Shown here piece after piece: positions 56,767-64,000 of a stretch of DNA of 64,000 bases (position 1 is its first letter; every line of letters starts with the position of its first letter). This DNA comes from Phyllobacterium sp. 628. GTDB lineage: Bacteria > Pseudomonadota > Alphaproteobacteria > Rhizobiales > Rhizobiaceae. The position numbers and the translations under genes were made by a program. The stretch spans positions 3,107,501 to 3,171,500 of the forward strand of contig NZ_CP050301.1 in assembly GCF_014189505.1 (NCBI RefSeq). The letters are read 5' to 3'. Below the pieces are notes generated by a model. That model was not told the DNA's origin. It made no database searches and saw only the letters and a list, made by a program, of their open reading frames with translations.

Positions 56767-57791
56767 GCTGCCTGTTCAGCCAGTCCCATTTGCACAGCCT
56801 CGTAAGCCCGGCGAATAATCGCACTGTTGGCATTCGGCTGATTGGCCTCCGTGGACAAAATCTGCCGCCAGCGGCGGGCACCGGCTGCACCGTGGAACAT
56901 GCCCACCATGTGGCGCGTCACATGCGAAAGTCTGCCGCCCTGGCTGATATGGCTGTCAGCATAGATGCACATATGATCGATGATCGCCTCAATCGCAGCT
57001 GGCTGTTGTGCATCGCCATAAATAGCGCTGTCGACGTCCAGCAACATGAACGGGTTGTTGTAGGCAGCCCGGCCCAGCATGACACCATCCACATGATTCA
57101 AATGATGAAGCGCTTCATCGCGCGTCTGAATACCACCATTGATCCCGATGAATTGACTCGGGTTTTGCTGTTTCAGCCGATAGACCCTGTCGTAATCGAG
57201 TGGCGGAATATCGCGGTTTTCCTTGGGCGAAAGTCCTTTGAGCCATGCCTTGCGGGCATGCACCCACAATGCATCTGAACCGGCTTCGAAAACACCACCA
57301 GCCAGATCATCCAGCGCCTGCTCAATATCCTGGTCATCAACGCCGATACGGCATTTCACCGTCACAGGAATAGCGACCGATTGCTTCATGGCAGCAACAC
57401 AATCCGCAACAAGCCGCGGAGTCTTCATAAGACAAGCACCAAATGTTCCGGATTGGACGCGGTCGGATGGGCAGCCGACATTGAGATTAATCTCGCGATA
57501 GCCAAGCGCCTCACCTATCCCGGCGGCTGCAGCCAGTTTCGCCGGATCCGAGCCACCCAGTTGCAGAGCAACGGGGTGCTCCTGTGCCGAAAATCCCAAA
57601 ATCCGTTCACGATTACCGTGGATTGCGGCATCGGCAACAATCATCTCGGTGTACAGCAAAGCATGACGCGTGAACTGCCGGTGCAGAGTCCGGCAATGAC
57701 GATCCGTCCAGTCGATCATGGGGGCTACAGCAAAAACGCGACCGCCGTAAATGCTTGCGTTTGTTGAATTTTCTAAGTTATTTCGTTGCAT
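56763..57791 (-). CDS. dusA: tRNA dihydrouridine(20/20a) synthase DusA
   Basis: A 342-residue FMN enzyme reducing uridine 20/20a in the D-loop of tRNAs. It has the flavin-binding FAVAPMIDWTDRHCRTLHRQ near the N-terminus, INLNVGCPSDRVQSGTFGAC with the catalytic cysteine, VTVKCRIGVDD and NGGIQTRDEA. The first 20 residues are not part of the conserved fold. The 5' end faces a tyrosine integrase gene 105 bp away: dusA is a well-known integration target and the conserved region at 57706-57726 is the likely attachment core. The integrated element may therefore supply the first codons of this dusA copy. Confidence 0.95.
   Translation of the reverse strand: MQRNNLENSTNASIYGGRVFAVAPMIDWTDRHCRTLHRQFTRHALLYTEMIVADAAIHGNRERILGFSAQEHPVALQLGGSDPAKLAAAAGIGEALGYREINLNVGCPSDRVQSGTFGACLMKTPRLVADCVAAMKQSVAIPVTVKCRIGVDDQDIEQALDDLAGGVFEAGSDALWVHARKAWLKGLSPKENRDIPPLDYDRVYRLKQQNPSQFIGINGGIQTRDEALHHLNHVDGVMLGRAAYNNPFMLLDVDSAIYGDAQQPAAIEAIIDHMCIYADSHISQGGRLSHVTRHMVGMFHGAAGARRWRQILSTEANQPNANSAIIRRAYEAVQMGLAEQAA
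57706..57726. other. Candidate attL core inside dusA
   Basis: This stretch encodes the APMIDWT part of DusA. Mobile elements with dusA-specific tyrosine integrases recombine near the 5' end of dusA in this kind of conserved sequence. Position and boundaries are inferred from the neighbouring integrase; the matching attR would be beyond the right edge. Confidence 0.5.
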
Positions 57792-57805
57792 TTCATGCTC
57801 AACAT

Positions 57806-57832
57806 GTTGCGTATCGTTGTGTATATCGCAAC
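57806..57832. promoter_or_regulatory. Inverted GTTGCG/CGCAAC motif upstream of the integrase
   Basis: Half-sites gttgcg (57806-57811) and tcgcaac (57826-57832) face each other with 14 bases between and share the GTTGCG core of the palindrome at 63279-63299. Two copies of ttgtgtat (57817 and 57837, 20 bp apart) overlap it. Possible repressor or integrase-arm sites; evidence is weak. Confidence 0.35.
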
Positions 57833-57896
57833 GTACTTGTGTATTTGTTCGCTATGTTTATAACAATGTGAGAAACTGGAGAGTGATGTTATAAGC

Positions 57897-58979
57897 ATGG
57901 GAACCATCGTAGAAAGAAAAAGGAAGAATGGCACCTTAGCATATATGGCAAAAATCAGCATTATGCGAGAGGGTGTCATTGCGCACCGAGAGAACAAGAC
58001 ATTCGATAGACGCCCGGCAGCAGCAGCATGGATCGCCAAACGCGAGGAACAATTATCCCAGCCCGGCGAGATCGAGCGCGCTAAATCTTCAAACATCACA
58101 CTGGCCGACGCTATTGATAAGTACACAACCGAAAGCCTGAAAGAGATTGGCAGGACAAAGGCGCAAGTTCTTCGAACAATCAAAGAGTACCCGATTGCGA
58201 ACCTGCTTTGCGAGCGTGTTACAAGTCAAGACATTGTAGGGTTAGCCAAAGAGCTTTCAGCGGGCAAGAAGCCACAGACAGTCAGTAATTACATATCTCA
58301 TTTGTCAGCCATCTTCGCTATCGCCCGGCCGGCATGGGATTACCGTCTAGACCCGCAAGCCATAAAGGACGCAACTGTTGTTGCAAAGAGGCTGGGCCTT
58401 ATTAGCAAATCAGATAGTCGCGACCGTAGGCCAACACTTGATGAGCTTGATTTGCTCATGACGCATTTTCAGAACCGGAATAAGACGCACCCCAAATCCG
58501 CACCTATGGATAGGATCATTGCATTCGCATTGTTCTCAACACGGCGACAAGAAGAGATCACGCGAATTAAATGGGACGATCTTGACGAGAAACACTCTCG
58601 TATATTGGTGAGAGACATGAAACATCCCGGCCAGAAGGTAGGAAATGACACATGGTGCGATCTGCCAGAACCGGCCTTACGGATTATCAAAGCGATGACC
58701 CGCGCATCTGATACCATATTCCCCTACTCGACTGATGCAATCAGCGCCGCGTTTACGCGCGCCTGTCCGCTTCTGGCTATTGAGGATTTAACCTTTCACG
58801 ATTTGAGACACGAAGGCATATCGCGGCTGTTCGAAATGGGTATGAATATACCACATGCCGCCGCTGTTTCCGGTCATCGCTCGTGGGTTAGCCTCAAGCG
58901 ATATACGCATATGAAAGAAAGCGGCGACAAGTATGATGGTTGGAAGTGGCTGGACGCGGTTACGCAGCCGCTTCCTTAG
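57897..58979 (+). CDS. Tyrosine-type recombinase/integrase
   Basis: A 360-residue tyrosine recombinase. The N-terminal arm-type SAM-like domain is followed by a catalytic domain with the RxxEI box FSTRRQEEITRIKWDDL, HxxR as HDLRHEGISRLF, GHRSW and the nucleophile tyrosine in VSLKRYTHMK. It lies 105 bp from the dusA 5' end and reads away from it, as in dusA-specific integrases. GGAG precedes the ATG. The 3' end overlaps the convergent endolysin gene by 20 bp. This enzyme most likely inserted the element into dusA. Confidence 0.94.
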   Translation: MGTIVERKRKNGTLAYMAKISIMREGVIAHRENKTFDRRPAAAAWIAKREEQLSQPGEIERAKSSNITLADAIDKYTTESLKEIGRTKAQVLRTIKEYPIANLLCERVTSQDIVGLAKELSAGKKPQTVSNYISHLSAIFAIARPAWDYRLDPQAIKDATVVAKRLGLISKSDSRDRRPTLDELDLLMTHFQNRNKTHPKSAPMDRIIAFALFSTRRQEEITRIKWDDLDEKHSRILVRDMKHPGQKVGNDTWCDLPEPALRIIKAMTRASDTIFPYSTDAISAAFTRACPLLAIEDLTFHDLRHEGISRLFEMGMNIPHAAAVSGHRSWVSLKRYTHMKESGDKYDGWKWLDAVTQPLP

Positions 58980-59757
58980 CATATGCAGCAGCCCGCCTCT
59001 TGTTGTGGCTGGCCTTAAAAAGAAGAATGCCGATCACAATCAGCAGAGCGACAGCAACACCAGCGACCACGTACCAATTGATATCAACAGCCGGAACGTT
59101 GCCGCTCGTTGCGATGCCACCACCACCCGCCGCCGTCGCCCCTGTCTGCTGTACGGTGGCCGTGGTGTTTGCCTTGGCGCTTTCAGTCTGTAGCTCCTGC
59201 CGGTCAGCGCCGGTAAGCGGCTTTGAACGGGCAAGATACATAGCCACGGCCTTTGCTTCGACATCTGCCACACGGGTTGACCACCCCCGTTTAAACGTGT
59301 TCCAGATTTTGAGTCCTCGCATGAAGCTAAGACGCTTGGCACAATGCCTCTGTATGACGGCCTTGCCGTCAGCCACGATAGCCGCCTTGAGCGTATCCGC
59401 TCCAACGATACCATCAGGTTTCAAACCAAGGACAGATTGCAAATCCTTGACTGATCGAGAGGGGCCAGAATTAACGCCATAGTCCAACGTTGATAGATCA
59501 ATACCGACAGGCAAAGCATCGCCACGGATCGGACGCCAGTACTTTGCCTCATAGATCGGCTTGGCGTCATTAAGCGTGAGGTTCTTGATATCAAGGTTCG
59601 GATAGCTGGCAGCAGCAATGCCGTACTTAGTTCCCTTGAGGGTTCCAACCCCAACTTTGCCACCAGTCCAATTACCCGGATCGCGTTTGTCGTTCGTATA
59701 TGCGCCTTCATGACGAAGGGTTACGGCAAGACATGCCGCCAAATTTCCAGTTGCCAT
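58960..59757 (-). CDS. Glycoside hydrolase 108-type endolysin with C-terminal membrane segment
   Basis: A roughly 265-residue phage muramidase. The N-terminal GH108/secretion-muramidase domain begins CLAVTLRHEGAYTNDKRDPG with the catalytic glutamate in RHEGAY, followed by GVGTLKGTKYGIAAASYPN. A peptidoglycan-binding_3-type domain follows (SVKDLQSVLGLKPDGIVGAD). A Thr/Ala/Gly-rich linker leads to one hydrophobic segment (WYVVAGVAVALLIVIGILLF) and a basic tail. I chose ATG at 59757, where the family start lies; a frame to 59790 exists. It has no N-terminal signal; the C-terminal segment may anchor it to the membrane. It faces the integrase rather than a lysis cassette. Confidence 0.87.
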   Translation of the reverse strand: MATGNLAACLAVTLRHEGAYTNDKRDPGNWTGGKVGVGTLKGTKYGIAAASYPNLDIKNLTLNDAKPIYEAKYWRPIRGDALPVGIDLSTLDYGVNSGPSRSVKDLQSVLGLKPDGIVGADTLKAAIVADGKAVIQRHCAKRLSFMRGLKIWNTFKRGWSTRVADVEAKAVAMYLARSKPLTGADRQELQTESAKANTTATVQQTGATAAGGGGIATSGNVPAVDINWYVVAGVAVALLIVIGILLFKASHNKRRAAAYAKEAAA

Positions 59758-59762
59758 AGGAA

Positions 59763-59806
59763 TATTCCCGCGTTGTGTAAACCGCGACAACCATCACGCG
59801 GGAATA
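59763..59806. promoter_or_regulatory. 10-bp dyad between divergent endolysin and Acb2-like genes
   Basis: Perfect arms tattcccgcg (59763-59772) and cgcgggaata (59797-59806) with 24 bases between, plus inner ttgt/acaa pairing. It lies just outside both start regions: 6 bp from the endolysin ATG and 43 bp from the acb2-like ATG. It could be an operator for divergent promoters or a 5' hairpin in either transcript. Confidence 0.55.
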
Positions 59807-59848
59807 GTTGTGGGGATCGAATGTCCACTTTAACCGGGAGAAGCAAAA

Positions 59849-60133
59849 ATGACCGAACATAAAGGACTGCCAGTCGCAGGATACAAAGCACAGAGTGACA
59901 AGGCTGTTGCACTCGTCAACGAAAACAAAATTCTGGAAGAACGTTGCCTTCGCCAGATCGACGCCATGAATAAACACAACATGGATGCTGAAGCCGCAGG
60001 GATTGCAAAGAGCGGTCAATATGACCCTCGCATGATGGCGCTTGCTCGCACCGGCATACAGGAAGCATTTATGTGGATGAACCGAGCAGTATTCCAGCCG
60101 GACCGCATCAAGCTTCCAGAAGACGCAGAATAA
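59849..60133 (+). CDS. Acb2/Tad1-like domain protein, predicted anti-CBASS nucleotide sponge
   Basis: A 94-residue, mainly helical small phage protein on the strand opposite to its neighbours. The sequence fits the Acb2/Tad1 hairpin family: GYK near residue 12, a central helix with AVALVNENKILEERCLRQID, and the strongly conserved C-terminal RMMALARTGIQEAFMWMNRA then VFQP. Tyr12 and Lys27 sit 15 apart, as I recall for the nucleotide-binding Tyr11 and Lys26 of phage PaMx33 Acb2. Acb2 hexamers sequester the cyclic nucleotides of CBASS immunity. GGGAGAAG precedes the ATG. The family match is by eye only; it could be a diverged relative with other ligand preference. Confidence 0.78.
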   Translation: MTEHKGLPVAGYKAQSDKAVALVNENKILEERCLRQIDAMNKHNMDAEAAGIAKSGQYDPRMMALARTGIQEAFMWMNRAVFQPDRIKLPEDAE

Positions 60134-60271
60134 CGAACACCCCGCGCGGTACTCCTGATCAATCATTCCTGGTTGATTGCTACATAGTTCTGATCGTCCG
60201 TGGGGAACGGCGCTGGGCCGCCAAGGGGTAGAGCATTCATGCCAGCGTAATCAGAGCGAACCGGGTAATGT

Positions 60272-60306
60272 AAGAGCCGCAGCGGAATGAGCCGCTTGCG
60301 GCTCTT
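60272..60306. terminator. Bidirectional hairpin between Acb2-like and D5-helicase genes
   Basis: Arms aagagccgca and tgcggctctt with extra inner gcgg/ccgc pairing; the plus side ends in CTT. It sits 1 bp beyond the helicase stop codon (minus strand) and about 140 bp past the acb2-like stop, so it can end both convergent transcripts. Confidence 0.8.
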
Positions 60307-60307
60307 C

Positions 60308-62059
60308 TTACCAGTCCACTTGCGCTAAATCCTTAGCTCTCTCGTCACTCAACCCGCCGCTTAACTTTATGCCGACCGCAACGCTACCTTTCGCCGTGCG
60401 CTTAACAATAACGTTTGGCATGGCCTTCAAGCGTTGTGAGAACGTGTTGACCGGAGGCAAGAACCGTTCCGAATGCCCTTGCTCCAGCGCCCATTTTTTG
60501 AAGTCGTTGAACAATTCACCAGTTCGCATCCAGCCGTCGTAAGGCTCATCTTTGCACGGAGCGATATGCGCCTCAAACCATTCATTGACAGGATCGAGCA
60601 GAAGCCAGCCCTGTAGCGCTTCCTTCGATGATTGCGGGATTGTATAGGCCCGGTTCTTCATAAGCCGCTGTGCGCCAGCTATGGCGAAACCAAGAAGCAA
60701 ATCCAATTCGGAATTGCGAATATGATCGGAGATATCGGGGATGATTTCTTTCTCCGGTATCGGCCTGTTAAATGTCAACACGACAAGTCGGCGCTGCAAC
60801 CCACGGTCTAGACCGCCGTTGAACCTTGGCAGTGTGTTCGTGGTGAAGCAATGAAGAGCACGCGGGATGAAGGTTACTGCTGATCTATAGAGATCGCGTC
60901 CCTCAATCGGGTTGCCGGTAATAGCCGCCTTGAAAGTTTCTCCAGCGATTGCCGCCGCTGACAATTCGTCAGCCACATTAGCGGCCTTGCCAGCCAGATT
61001 GACAATGCGCCGCTCATCGCTGAATGCAGCGGGCGGAATTGCAGAAACCGAACCGGCAGGGAGCAAGCACGACAGCAAGCTTGCAATGGTGGACTTGCCG
61101 TTAGATGCAGTCTCGCCAAGAAACACGAATGCTTTTGGTTGCGGCATGCGCGTAGCCAAACCAAGGGCAGCAGCACCAAGAATTTCACCAACAAGGTTGA
61201 TCTTGTCTTCTTCGTCGGGGTCGCCTTTGAATGCACCGTGCACGAGTTTGTGTAGCATTGATTGTGTGGGTGGCGACCTATCAGCCTTCGCATTGAACTC
61301 GGCGGGAATGGTGAAGCGGAACTTGTCTTCGGGATCGTGAGCGCGAACCGTAACGTTTCCATCGGGACCAATTACGATGACGCCATTCAATGCATTCATT
61401 GCTACAGTTGGATCGTTGAAAAAATCAGGCTCGGAAAGAATGGTCCCAGCCTCCGAAAGTACACCGTCAATTGTCCGCTTCCCGATCTTGAGCGGCGCAC
61501 CCTTGTCACCAACGCCTACACCGTCGAATTTATGCACTGCAAGACGTAGCTTCTGATCCGGTATCTCTTGCCAAGCAGTTGGCCCAAAGGCCCAAAACTT
61601 GCCATCGGCTTTCACCACGTCGCCGCCACACGCAATCATGATCCGGTTTGTAAACTCGGTTGCAATCTCAACCTCGCTTCCCCATTCAAAATTCCGAATG
61701 GCAGAGAACCTATCGATAGCAGACGCGCCGACAGCGCGCGGAGCCGGTACTACAGTTTGAAAATCTTTATCAGGGTCAGGAGCCTCTTCCAGCGCCGACG
61801 TTTGCTTGTGGGCAGTTGTGGCCGATGCTGACGGCTCAAACTGCTCATTGGGTTCCCGCTGGCTTTCCTTGGGCCTCTCTGTTGATTTTTCAGAGGTTTC
61901 AGTTTTTGCAACAACTGGAGGCGTCCACGGTTGAACAGACGCCCGCATGAAATCGTCAATATCTTTCTTGGTCCATCCGTCGCGCACGGCGTCAGCACAG
62001 TCCCATCCTTTGGGCGGCTTCGTTCCAGACTGCCAATCTGTGAATGCGTATTGCGTCAT
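60308..62059 (-). CDS. Phage D5-like helicase-primase protein
   Basis: A 583-residue replication protein. Residues about 1-110 are a proline/serine/glutamate-rich stretch without clear fold. The centre and C-terminus match D5/P4-type SF3 helicases: Walker A FLGETASNGKSTIASLL, Walker B-like LAGKAANVADELSAAA and the motif FTTNTLPRFNGGLDRGLQRR. It would unwind DNA at the phage origin. It is downstream of the winged-helix and primase genes on the same strand, overlapping the former by 4 bp, so helicase and primase are made together. Confidence 0.88.
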   Translation of the reverse strand: MTQYAFTDWQSGTKPPKGWDCADAVRDGWTKKDIDDFMRASVQPWTPPVVAKTETSEKSTERPKESQREPNEQFEPSASATTAHKQTSALEEAPDPDKDFQTVVPAPRAVGASAIDRFSAIRNFEWGSEVEIATEFTNRIMIACGGDVVKADGKFWAFGPTAWQEIPDQKLRLAVHKFDGVGVGDKGAPLKIGKRTIDGVLSEAGTILSEPDFFNDPTVAMNALNGVIVIGPDGNVTVRAHDPEDKFRFTIPAEFNAKADRSPPTQSMLHKLVHGAFKGDPDEEDKINLVGEILGAAALGLATRMPQPKAFVFLGETASNGKSTIASLLSCLLPAGSVSAIPPAAFSDERRIVNLAGKAANVADELSAAAIAGETFKAAITGNPIEGRDLYRSAVTFIPRALHCFTTNTLPRFNGGLDRGLQRRLVVLTFNRPIPEKEIIPDISDHIRNSELDLLLGFAIAGAQRLMKNRAYTIPQSSKEALQGWLLLDPVNEWFEAHIAPCKDEPYDGWMRTGELFNDFKKWALEQGHSERFLPPVNTFSQRLKAMPNVIVKRTAKGSVAVGIKLSGGLSDERAKDLAQVDW

Positions 62060-62373
62060 TTATCAGCAGCCCACACCAAGCGGCGACCACCGTTCAAGCC
62101 GATCTTGCCTTGAATGATTAGGCCGTGATTTTGTATCTTTTCCCGGATGTGATTGATCATTACGGCGATGATAGTGTGCGCTGTTTCTGGCCCGCCATCT
62201 TCCTTGTCGCCGTACAGGATTTCGACTATTTCAGTAGCGCTAACGTACTTCCCAAAATTCTCACACAGAAAATCAAAAATCTTTCTCTCTGTTTTTGTGA
62301 AATGAACGTACTCTGTAACGCTTTCCATCGTCACATTATTTGCGTCATAACCGCAGCAGGGACATGCACTCAT
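62056..62373 (-). CDS. Winged helix DNA-binding protein with N-terminal CxxC
   Basis: A 105-residue protein. Residues 25-100 resemble the OmpR/PhoB-type winged helix (FTKTERKIFDFLCENFGKYV, SATEIVEILYG, IAVMINHIREKI and a final GRRLVW), but no receiver domain is present. The N-terminus MSACPCCGYDAN may bind zinc. It overlaps primase by 4 bp on one side and helicase by 4 bp on the other, so it is in the replication operon and may be an origin-binding or regulatory protein. Confidence 0.75.
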   Translation of the reverse strand: MSACPCCGYDANNVTMESVTEYVHFTKTERKIFDFLCENFGKYVSATEIVEILYGDKEDGGPETAHTIIAVMINHIREKIQNHGLIIQGKIGLNGGRRLVWAADK

Positions 62374-63254
62374 TGCGTGGCCCTCATCACATCGAGAACG
62401 CGAGCAGTGCAGCCTAGCCCTGTGACAATAGCGGCTACCTCATTAGAAGTAGCCAAGCCGGGAACATCAGCATCCGGCCAGATGACAGCATTCAGACCGG
62501 ATAGGGGTGACCAATCTATATGTTTCACACCCTGAGTTCCGCCCGGCCATGAAACTACAGTTCTCCCCGTAGCCTTAGCCAAGGCGTCTTTACACTTTTC
62601 GCCCTCGACTATGATCACTTGCCGGGCTTCTCCAATAGTTTCCAAGCCGTACAGCGGGCGGGGCTTGGGAAATGGGAAGCGGCACCAGCGTTCCGAGCCA
62701 TCTTGGAGTACGACACGCATGACCATAGGCGTTTCTTTGCCACCATCCGGCAGATCGTGACGCAAGACATAGCCGATCAATGAACCATCAGCCCGCCTAT
62801 ACGGAAACACCATCGACGGGGTGAACGATCCCCATTCGGATTTATCCCCTTTGCGCTTAGGATTGTAGAGCTTTACGCGTTTGCCAGCTTCGATTGATTG
62901 TGATGGATTATCGACAGGCACGATACCCGCATAAATGTCTCGAACCTCGACCTTGCGCGGCGCAACATTTGGGCCGACCTCGCCACCGCCGAGTATGTTG
63001 ATTGCTTCCCGCAGATCGACGCCCTTGATCTTCTGCACAAAGTCCAACACATCGCCATGTTCGCCGCAACCAAAGCAATGAAAGCGCTCAATATGGTCGT
63101 TCCCTGTGAATATGGTGAAAGACCCCGTATCCTCAGAATGGAAAGGACAACAGCCGACAAATTCTTGCCCGTCAATATCGAGACTGACGCCATAATGCGC
63201 TGCTGTATCAGACAGTGAAACGTCGCGCCTTAAACGCTCTATATCCGACGACAT
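62370..63254 (-). CDS. Phage DNA primase with CHC2 zinc finger and Toprim domain
   Basis: A roughly 294-residue primase. The CHC2 zinc finger has FVGCCPFHSEDTGSFTIF and RFHCFGCGEHGDVLDFV; the Toprim domain has VIIVEGEKCKDALA and VVSWPGG. The usual DnaK-like helicase-binding C-domain is missing, as in phage primases that work with a separate D5 helicase. I chose ATG at 63254 (MSSDIERLRRDVSL), the family start, over 63296, which would sit across the palindromic site at 63279-63299. Confidence 0.9.
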   Translation of the reverse strand: MSSDIERLRRDVSLSDTAAHYGVSLDIDGQEFVGCCPFHSEDTGSFTIFTGNDHIERFHCFGCGEHGDVLDFVQKIKGVDLREAINILGGGEVGPNVAPRKVEVRDIYAGIVPVDNPSQSIEAGKRVKLYNPKRKGDKSEWGSFTPSMVFPYRRADGSLIGYVLRHDLPDGGKETPMVMRVVLQDGSERWCRFPFPKPRPLYGLETIGEARQVIIVEGEKCKDALAKATGRTVVSWPGGTQGVKHIDWSPLSGLNAVIWPDADVPGLATSNEVAAIVTGLGCTARVLDVMRATQ

Positions 63255-63278
63255 TGGGCTGGCTCCGTAAGTGATTTG

Positions 63279-63299
63279 CTGTTGCGATATTCGCAACAG
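63279..63299. promoter_or_regulatory. Palindromic operator-like site upstream of the primase operon
   Basis: Perfect 9-bp arms ctgttgcga and tcgcaacag with a 3-base TAT centre, 25 bp upstream of the primase ATG. Size and symmetry are those of a phage repressor operator. The same GTTGCG core recurs upstream of the integrase. No repressor gene is in the window. Confidence 0.65.
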
Positions 63300-63332
63300 T
63301 ATATTCGAATGTAAAGCCCGTTAACCAAAAAT

Positions 63333-63737
63333 TTAGTGGATGCCGAGAAGGATTTTTGACAGGTCTTCTTCACTTCTGGCTATGCCAGCCCTGCCCCCAG
63401 CGCTGTTCACCGCATCTATCCAAGCCAACTGCTCGATTGTTGGGCGTGCGTTTTCTTTCACCTCGACTTGTGTGTAAATCGCAACGGTTGAGCCGACCAT
63501 TTCAGGCGTGATCAACTCTGGCACCCACCCACCAAGATCGGACATACCAGTAATTCCGGCATGGAAAGGGCGGGCATTACGTACCACAACGTCACCGGGC
63601 TTTAGCTTCATTGTGCGATGGACGGTTATGCGTTCTGCTTTACCTACCCACGCCATGCCTACCTGTTGCCTGAAAAGGCGCGCCTTCAATTGTGAGGCGC
63701 GCATTTGCAGACGGCGCATGAAATCAGCTTCTGACAT
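63333..63737 (-). CDS. VRR-NUC domain nuclease
   Basis: A 134-residue phage nuclease of the VRR-NUC family (stand-alone form related to the C-domain of FAN1 and to restriction-type folds). The family pattern is visible: GDVVVRNARPFHAGITGMSD, the acidic/lysine motif QVEVKENARPTIEQL and AWIDAVNSAGGRAGIARS. Phages carry it in replication modules, probably for processing branched DNA. Its ATG overlaps the stop of the upstream gene (TAATG), and the next gene (primase) follows after 79 bp. Confidence 0.87.
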   Translation of the reverse strand: MSEADFMRRLQMRASQLKARLFRQQVGMAWVGKAERITVHRTMKLKPGDVVVRNARPFHAGITGMSDLGGWVPELITPEMVGSTVAIYTQVEVKENARPTIEQLAWIDAVNSAGGRAGIARSEEDLSKILLGIH

Positions 63738-64000
63738 TAGCGAGCCCTACACTCAGCAATCATTGCTAAACGTTTTTCACCGTACTCAACGCAATCAGGA
63801 ATACCCGATGCGATGGCGATCCTTGCGGTATGTTCCAAAGGCCCATACCTGTCAGTCAGAATTGCACCAGCAGCGATAGCTAGAGCTTTCTTGCTCAATG
63901 TAATATCGAAATGAACCCAGCTAGCTTTCTTGTGTTTGCCAAATGAAAGCGTCTGATGACCTTGTATCCATTTACGTTGCACCCCGATGGTATCCACCAT
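63737..64000 (-). CDS. Unrecognised phage protein, possibly partial
   Basis: An 87-residue frame that starts with ATG at the very right edge (64000), so it may begin there or be continued from outside. Two near-complementary features are seen: SFGKHKKASWVHFDITLSKK and LTDRYGPLEHTARIAIASGIP. I recognise no family. It is upstream of VRR-NUC and overlaps it by 1 bp, so it belongs to the same operon. Confidence 0.55.
   Translation of the reverse strand: MVDTIGVQRKWIQGHQTLSFGKHKKASWVHFDITLSKKALAIAAGAILTDRYGPLEHTARIAIASGIPDCVEYGEKRLAMIAECRAR

Follow-up and report, generated by a model that had tools for sequence, protein, structure and literature searches.

A probable Acb2-type nucleotide sponge gene in a proposed prophage of Phyllobacterium sp. 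628

We examined a 64,000-nucleotide stretch of the plant-associated bacterium Phyllobacterium sp. 628 (assembly GCF_014189505.1, contig NZ_CP050301.1, forward-strand positions 3,107,501 to 3,171,500; hereafter the window) that carries a short gene inside a proposed prophage. The gene occupies positions 59849-60133 of the plus strand. On the basis of sequence comparison and a structure model, we put the probability that it encodes an Acb2-type nucleotide sponge at roughly 0.88. This reading is supported because the family profile match, the sequence and structure matches to Acb2 proteins, and the conservation of nucleotide-contact residues agree. The protein would be a newly recognised and largely routine representative of the Acb2 family. 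The one non-routine point is the presence of conserved ends around the presumed ligand pocket, which are possible specificity determinants.

Family membership and predicted fold

The open reading frame (ORF) fits positions 59849-60133 exactly, with an ATG start, a TAA stop and, judged by eye, a GGAG-like ribosome site upstream of the ATG. A sequence-only reading of this DNA had described a 94-residue, plus-strand, Acb2/Tad1-like gene among minus-strand phage genes. This description holds: the ORF is the sole plus-strand gene between minus-strand endolysin and primase/helicase genes, and the residues singled out at the time (Gly11-Tyr12, Lys27 and the C-terminal RTGIQEAFMWMNRAVFQP) are all present in the translation. 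The family profile search that the same reading had proposed gave a clear result. Pfam PF24729 (Acb2/Tad1 hairpin) matched residues 11-83 across its full profile (positions 1-58) with 57.1 bits, far over the curated cut-off of 27 bits (E 2e-15). No NCBIfam or PADLOC model matched the 94-residue protein. A chance ORF or a misread gene has only the short length and isolated strand in its favour, and it is made extremely improbable by the Pfam E-value and by 15 aligned relatives (40-67% identity), of which several share the start. Several relatives on other contigs begin with MTEHKGLP or with something very similar.

The closest solved relatives by sequence are T4 Vs.4/Acb2 (PDB 7uq2) and p26/Acb2 of a Pseudomonas phage (PDB 8h2j, 8h2x, 8ixz), and these two also lead the structural comparison of the modelled protein. 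The single-chain model is small and all-helical, with two long antiparallel helices as in Acb2 and no strands. Where Acb2 has a short N-terminal helix before the hairpin, residues 1-16 are modelled as coil, and residues 1-4 have a predicted local distance difference test score (pLDDT) below 50. At the level of the single chain, the predicted fold is thus the Acb2-like two-helix hairpin that had been anticipated, with Acb2 chains as the top structural matches.

PF24729 spans both Acb2 and Tad1, so we weighed whether the protein is a Tad1-type sponge whose main ligand would be the Thoeris signal glycocyclic ADP-ribose (gcADPR). Tad1 (PDB 7uav, 8kbe and others) shares with the window protein the Pfam hairpin family name and an EAxMWMNR helix end, and Tad1 chains match it weakly (E 0.08-0.09; 0.2 in a second search). 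A review (PMC12043709) reports that Tad1 also binds gcADPR and that a tail lines its pocket, which the conserved C-terminal tail of the window protein recalls. A ThsB-like TIR gene is present in one of 19 genus genomes. However, the same review gives Tad1 an N-terminal beta-sheet, whereas the 94-residue window protein lacks one and its model has no strands. Acb2 chains also give the better matches, which cover most of the protein against about 30 residues for Tad1 chains, and the own genome (rated 94% complete) has no ThsB or TIR_2 match. We therefore regard a Tad1-type sponge as very improbable: of the original Acb2/Tad1-like label, the Acb2 half stands and the Tad1 half does not.

Ligand-contact residues and conserved ends

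A profile search gave 54 matches. Four of these, from L047 and L070, were broken in frame and were removed, and merging identical frames left 42, to which p26 was added. The resulting 43 rows comprise 38 distinct close relatives (the window protein included), three Amycolatopsis proteins, one T4-type Acb2 and p26. Of the phage matches from the tblastn search described below, the alignment includes those behind L028-L031. One of the close relatives (L032) was taken from a metagenome bin assigned to Flavobacteriaceae, possibly through misbinning. L047 and L070 belong to Martelella mediterranea and to one of the family genomes, and in each case another contig of that strain or genome carries an intact acb2 copy (L038, L055). 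A tree of the 43 rows and 67 columns does not resolve its base; it places the window protein in a group of 15 with weak support (87/91) and puts p26 and T4 Acb2 on long branches.

All 43 rows (38/38 close relatives, T4, p26 and Amycolatopsis) share Gly11, Tyr12, Lys27 and Pro84. The sequence-only reading had likened Tyr12 and Lys27, which keep the 15-residue spacing, to Tyr11 and Lys26 of PaMx33 Acb2, residues that bind nucleotide; in the alignment Tyr12 and Lys27 do fall on Tyr11 and Lys26 of p26. Arg61 lines up with p26 Arg67, presumably a residue of the trinucleotide site; 33 of the 38 close relatives keep Arg there, but T4 Acb2 has Asp at this position. For T4 Acb2, PMC12657218 reports that Y8A disrupts dinucleotide binding and that Phe82 stacks on a base of the bound dinucleotide. 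Phe82 is kept in 36/38 close relatives, whereas p26 has Ala there. Thr68, which is Thr in 30 of the 38, corresponds to T4 Thr68; according to PMC12657230, a Met substitution there reduces binding in T4 Acb2. Four relatives argue against a uniform function in the group: L020, L021, L029 and L033 all lack Arg61 and Thr68, and the first two lack Phe82 as well.

Both ends of the protein extend conservation beyond the Pfam domain. Before the GY pair stands GLPV (Pro8 in 38/38, Leu7 in 37/38 and Gly6 in 36/38 close relatives), and after Pro84 comes an R-x-x-LPED tail (Table 1). T4 Acb2 has neither GLPV before its GY nor the RxxLPED tail, and neither end is visible in the aligned stretch of p26, including the LPED tail. 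By alignment, GLPVxGY and RxxLPED mark the group of the window protein. Three relatives with longer N-termini (L029 7920-8255, L033 7851-8249 and L020 5791-6249) repeat a G-x-P-L-x-G motif in them, resembling the GLPVAG that directly precedes the ligand tyrosine.

By analogy with T4 Acb2, the conserved ends should adjoin the dinucleotide pocket, because the positions of Tyr12 and Phe82 bound that pocket in T4. A speculative extension, which we consider doubtful, is that the ends close the pocket as a lid. The ligand range of this branch, which is mostly alphaproteobacterial, would then be tighter than that of the T4 and Pseudomonas Acb2 proteins or differ from it, and might include a Tad1-like gcADPR activity. 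The conserved extra ends, and a cognate system not found in the own genome, would also suit a sponge that has diverged within the same fold, either to bind a different nucleotide or to lose binding and take another role. The retention of Tyr12 and Lys27 in every close relative, together with that of Phe82 and Thr68 in most, argues at the sequence level for retained binding, and such divergence is very unlikely. We therefore retain the Acb2-type sponge as the preferred reading.

Gene neighbourhood and prophage

The sequence-only reading had called the gene hairpin-flanked, and in form this is correct: an 11-nucleotide inverted repeat lies on its 5′ side and a 10-nucleotide one on its 3′ side (Table 1). 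As plus-strand RNA, the 5′ repeat has a predicted stability of -21.1 kcal/mol, equalled in 4 of 200 shuffles. It lies beyond the inner ATG of the endolysin gene (59757), although the mechanically called endolysin ORF, from TTG 59790, would overlap it. With up to one mismatch allowed, no other copy of the half-site was found in a 20-kb stretch (L002). The 3′ hairpin reaches -25.4 kcal/mol as plus-strand RNA, a value equalled in none of 200 shuffles. It may act as a terminator, without a clear T-run, and it is absent from the output of a consensus terminator scan; a promoter scan found no sigma-70-like site 5′ of the gene. It is plausible that the acb2-like gene has its own predicted transcript.

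Table 1. Features in and around the acb2-like gene, in window positions
Feature	Position	Strand	Remarks
Candidate left attachment site, 5′ end of dusA	57703..57734		27/32 bases equal a second copy at chromosome 3211823-3211854 (by eye)
Prophage tyrosine integrase	57897..58979	+	Used with the attachment repeat to place the left end
Endolysin	58960-59790	-	Glyco_hydro_108 and PHROG endolysin; flanks acb2-like gene
Perfect 11-nucleotide inverted repeat TATTCCCGCGT/ACGCGGGAATA, 5′ of acb2	59763-59773/59796-59806		Possible operator or transcript hairpin
acb2-like gene, 94 residues	59849..60133	+	PF24729 hairpin at residues 11-83
Tyr12 codon	59882..59884	+	Aligned with T4 Acb2 Tyr8 and p26 Tyr11
Lys27 codon	59927..59929	+	Aligned with p26 Lys26 and T4
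Phe82 codon	60092..60094	+	Aligned with T4 Phe82
C-terminal tail R-x-x-LPED, from Arg86	60104..60130	+	Close relatives: R86 38/38, L89 35/38, P90 28/38, E91 25/38, D92 32/38
Strong hairpin, 10-nucleotide inverted repeat, between converging acb2 and primase	60272-60281/60297-60306		Possible terminator
Primase/helicase	60308-62059	-	Flanks acb2-like gene on the other side

We propose a prophage of about 46.6 kb at dusA, with the acb2-like gene about 2 kb inside its left end. The borders are only proposed because a search for attachment sites found no exact repeat longer than 14 nucleotides. Pfam matches among the prophage genes include a head-tail connector, single-strand binding protein (SSB), helicase, RecT and a DUF3799 nuclease-like protein, and a possible helix-turn-helix repressor matched below the cut-off. 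A terminase-like protein of 496 residues had no Pfam match. When the DNA of 57750-64000 was compared with phages, the integrase or a part of the endolysin gene alone matched (among 20 of 56 matching records).

Relatives, target systems and proposed role

A tblastn search found relatives in 442 phage records, most of them Escherichia and Shigella phages. Among the best 60 of the 442, the closest are in Rhizobium phages (61-62% identity), followed by Brevundimonas, Sinorhizobium, Rhodobacter and Caulobacter phages, and the Escherichia and Shigella relatives are at about 35%. The best 18 of the 442 records (H1-H18) label the gene only as a hypothetical protein. The likely carriers of Acb2-type sponges would thereby extend to this prophage and to unlabelled phages of Rhizobium, Brevundimonas, Rhodobacter and Caulobacter. 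Such naming is otherwise routine, as in a newly sequenced Microbacterium phage in which acb2 was named (PMC13348362). In the open-licence literature we found no Acb2 account for Rhizobium prophages, and one may be in print elsewhere.

The positions of relatives vary: some precede an HslV-like gene, and others lie within replication modules or two genes past the major capsid gene. This variation fits a mobile accessory gene. The T4-type acb2 gene, in contrast to the isolated gene described here, belongs to a series of small genes that share one strand of a T4-like phage. Six plasmid records, all from Rhizobiaceae genera, each hold a relative. Three of these records (H85-H87) are plasmids of 115-120 kb, and the carrier Rhizobium phages measure 115-122 kb, so that these may be phage-plasmids.

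DNA comparison points to Phyllobacterium as the probable host: for the three other contigs of the genome, 20-kb stretches have their best matches in Phyllobacterium plasmids, at 79-80% over 35-75% of the query. Within the genus, PF24729 was found in one of 20 genomes, which is the own genome. A search of 297 genomes from the bacterial family gave 20 matches in 16 genomes (15 over cut-off), nine of the matches being in the group of the window protein. The residue counts above exclude the other 11, which fail the window-group profile. We also observed a second PF24729 group in this family (L053, L054, L056, L058, L060, L062, L063, L064 and L067), made up of short proteins that lack GY, end near EEAVMWAVKHI(T/S) and are not matched by the window-group profile.

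The proposed role follows the Acb2 literature. Six copies would assemble into a hexamer in which cyclic dinucleotides would be bound by Tyr12, Lys27 and Phe82 of paired protomers and cyclic trinucleotides by a site at the centre. On infection or induction, the protein would remove the alarm nucleotide made by the cyclase of a cyclic oligonucleotide-based antiphage signalling system (CBASS) before the cell-killing effector switches on. The gene would be an accessory one of the prophage, probably transcribed on its own, and would favour the phage in whichever host strains possess CBASS.

The sequence-only reading had pointed to the host genome as a place to look for a CBASS operon, and there the expectation failed: the own genome has no match to a SMODS cyclase or to mCpol (Panoptes). 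This absence of a CBASS cyclase is no proof, because the genome is rated 94% complete; any target would be in other strains, since none was detected here. No true Cas10 was found in the own genome either, its single Cas10-palm match being a GGDEF protein below the cut-off. A SAVED search gave no match, but its controls were also silent, which makes it uninformative.

SMODS cyclases were detected in three of the 20 genus genomes (operons L072, L073 and L074), and PADLOC models identify a CBASS effector next to each: 4TM (G006), NucC (G013) and phospholipase (G005). According to the review PMC12043709, CapV responds to 3′3′-cyclic GMP-AMP (cGAMP) and NucC to cyclic triadenylate (cA3), and Acb2 binds both. 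The cyclases and effectors of these three genomes, with both signals bound by Acb2, thus point to a matching threat in the genus, not in this strain, and pair the likely sponge carriers with CBASS operons of the same bacterial genus.

In the 297 family genomes, which were the same in both searches as far as the lists show, SMODS was found in 38 (33 over cut-off). Sponge and cyclase occur together in two, G168 (with PF24729 below cut-off) and G195, against 2.05 expected; over the cut-offs, one was observed against 1.67 expected. This lack of enrichment is unsurprising for a gene acting in other hosts, yet it is no positive support for the sponge reading.

One phage relative has a conspicuous neighbour. 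In Rhizobium phage RHph_X2_26 (L076 3444-4249), the acb2 relative lies 17 bases 3′ of a gene labelled "TIR domain-containing protein", so that in this phage a sponge gene has a signal-maker-like gene as its neighbour.
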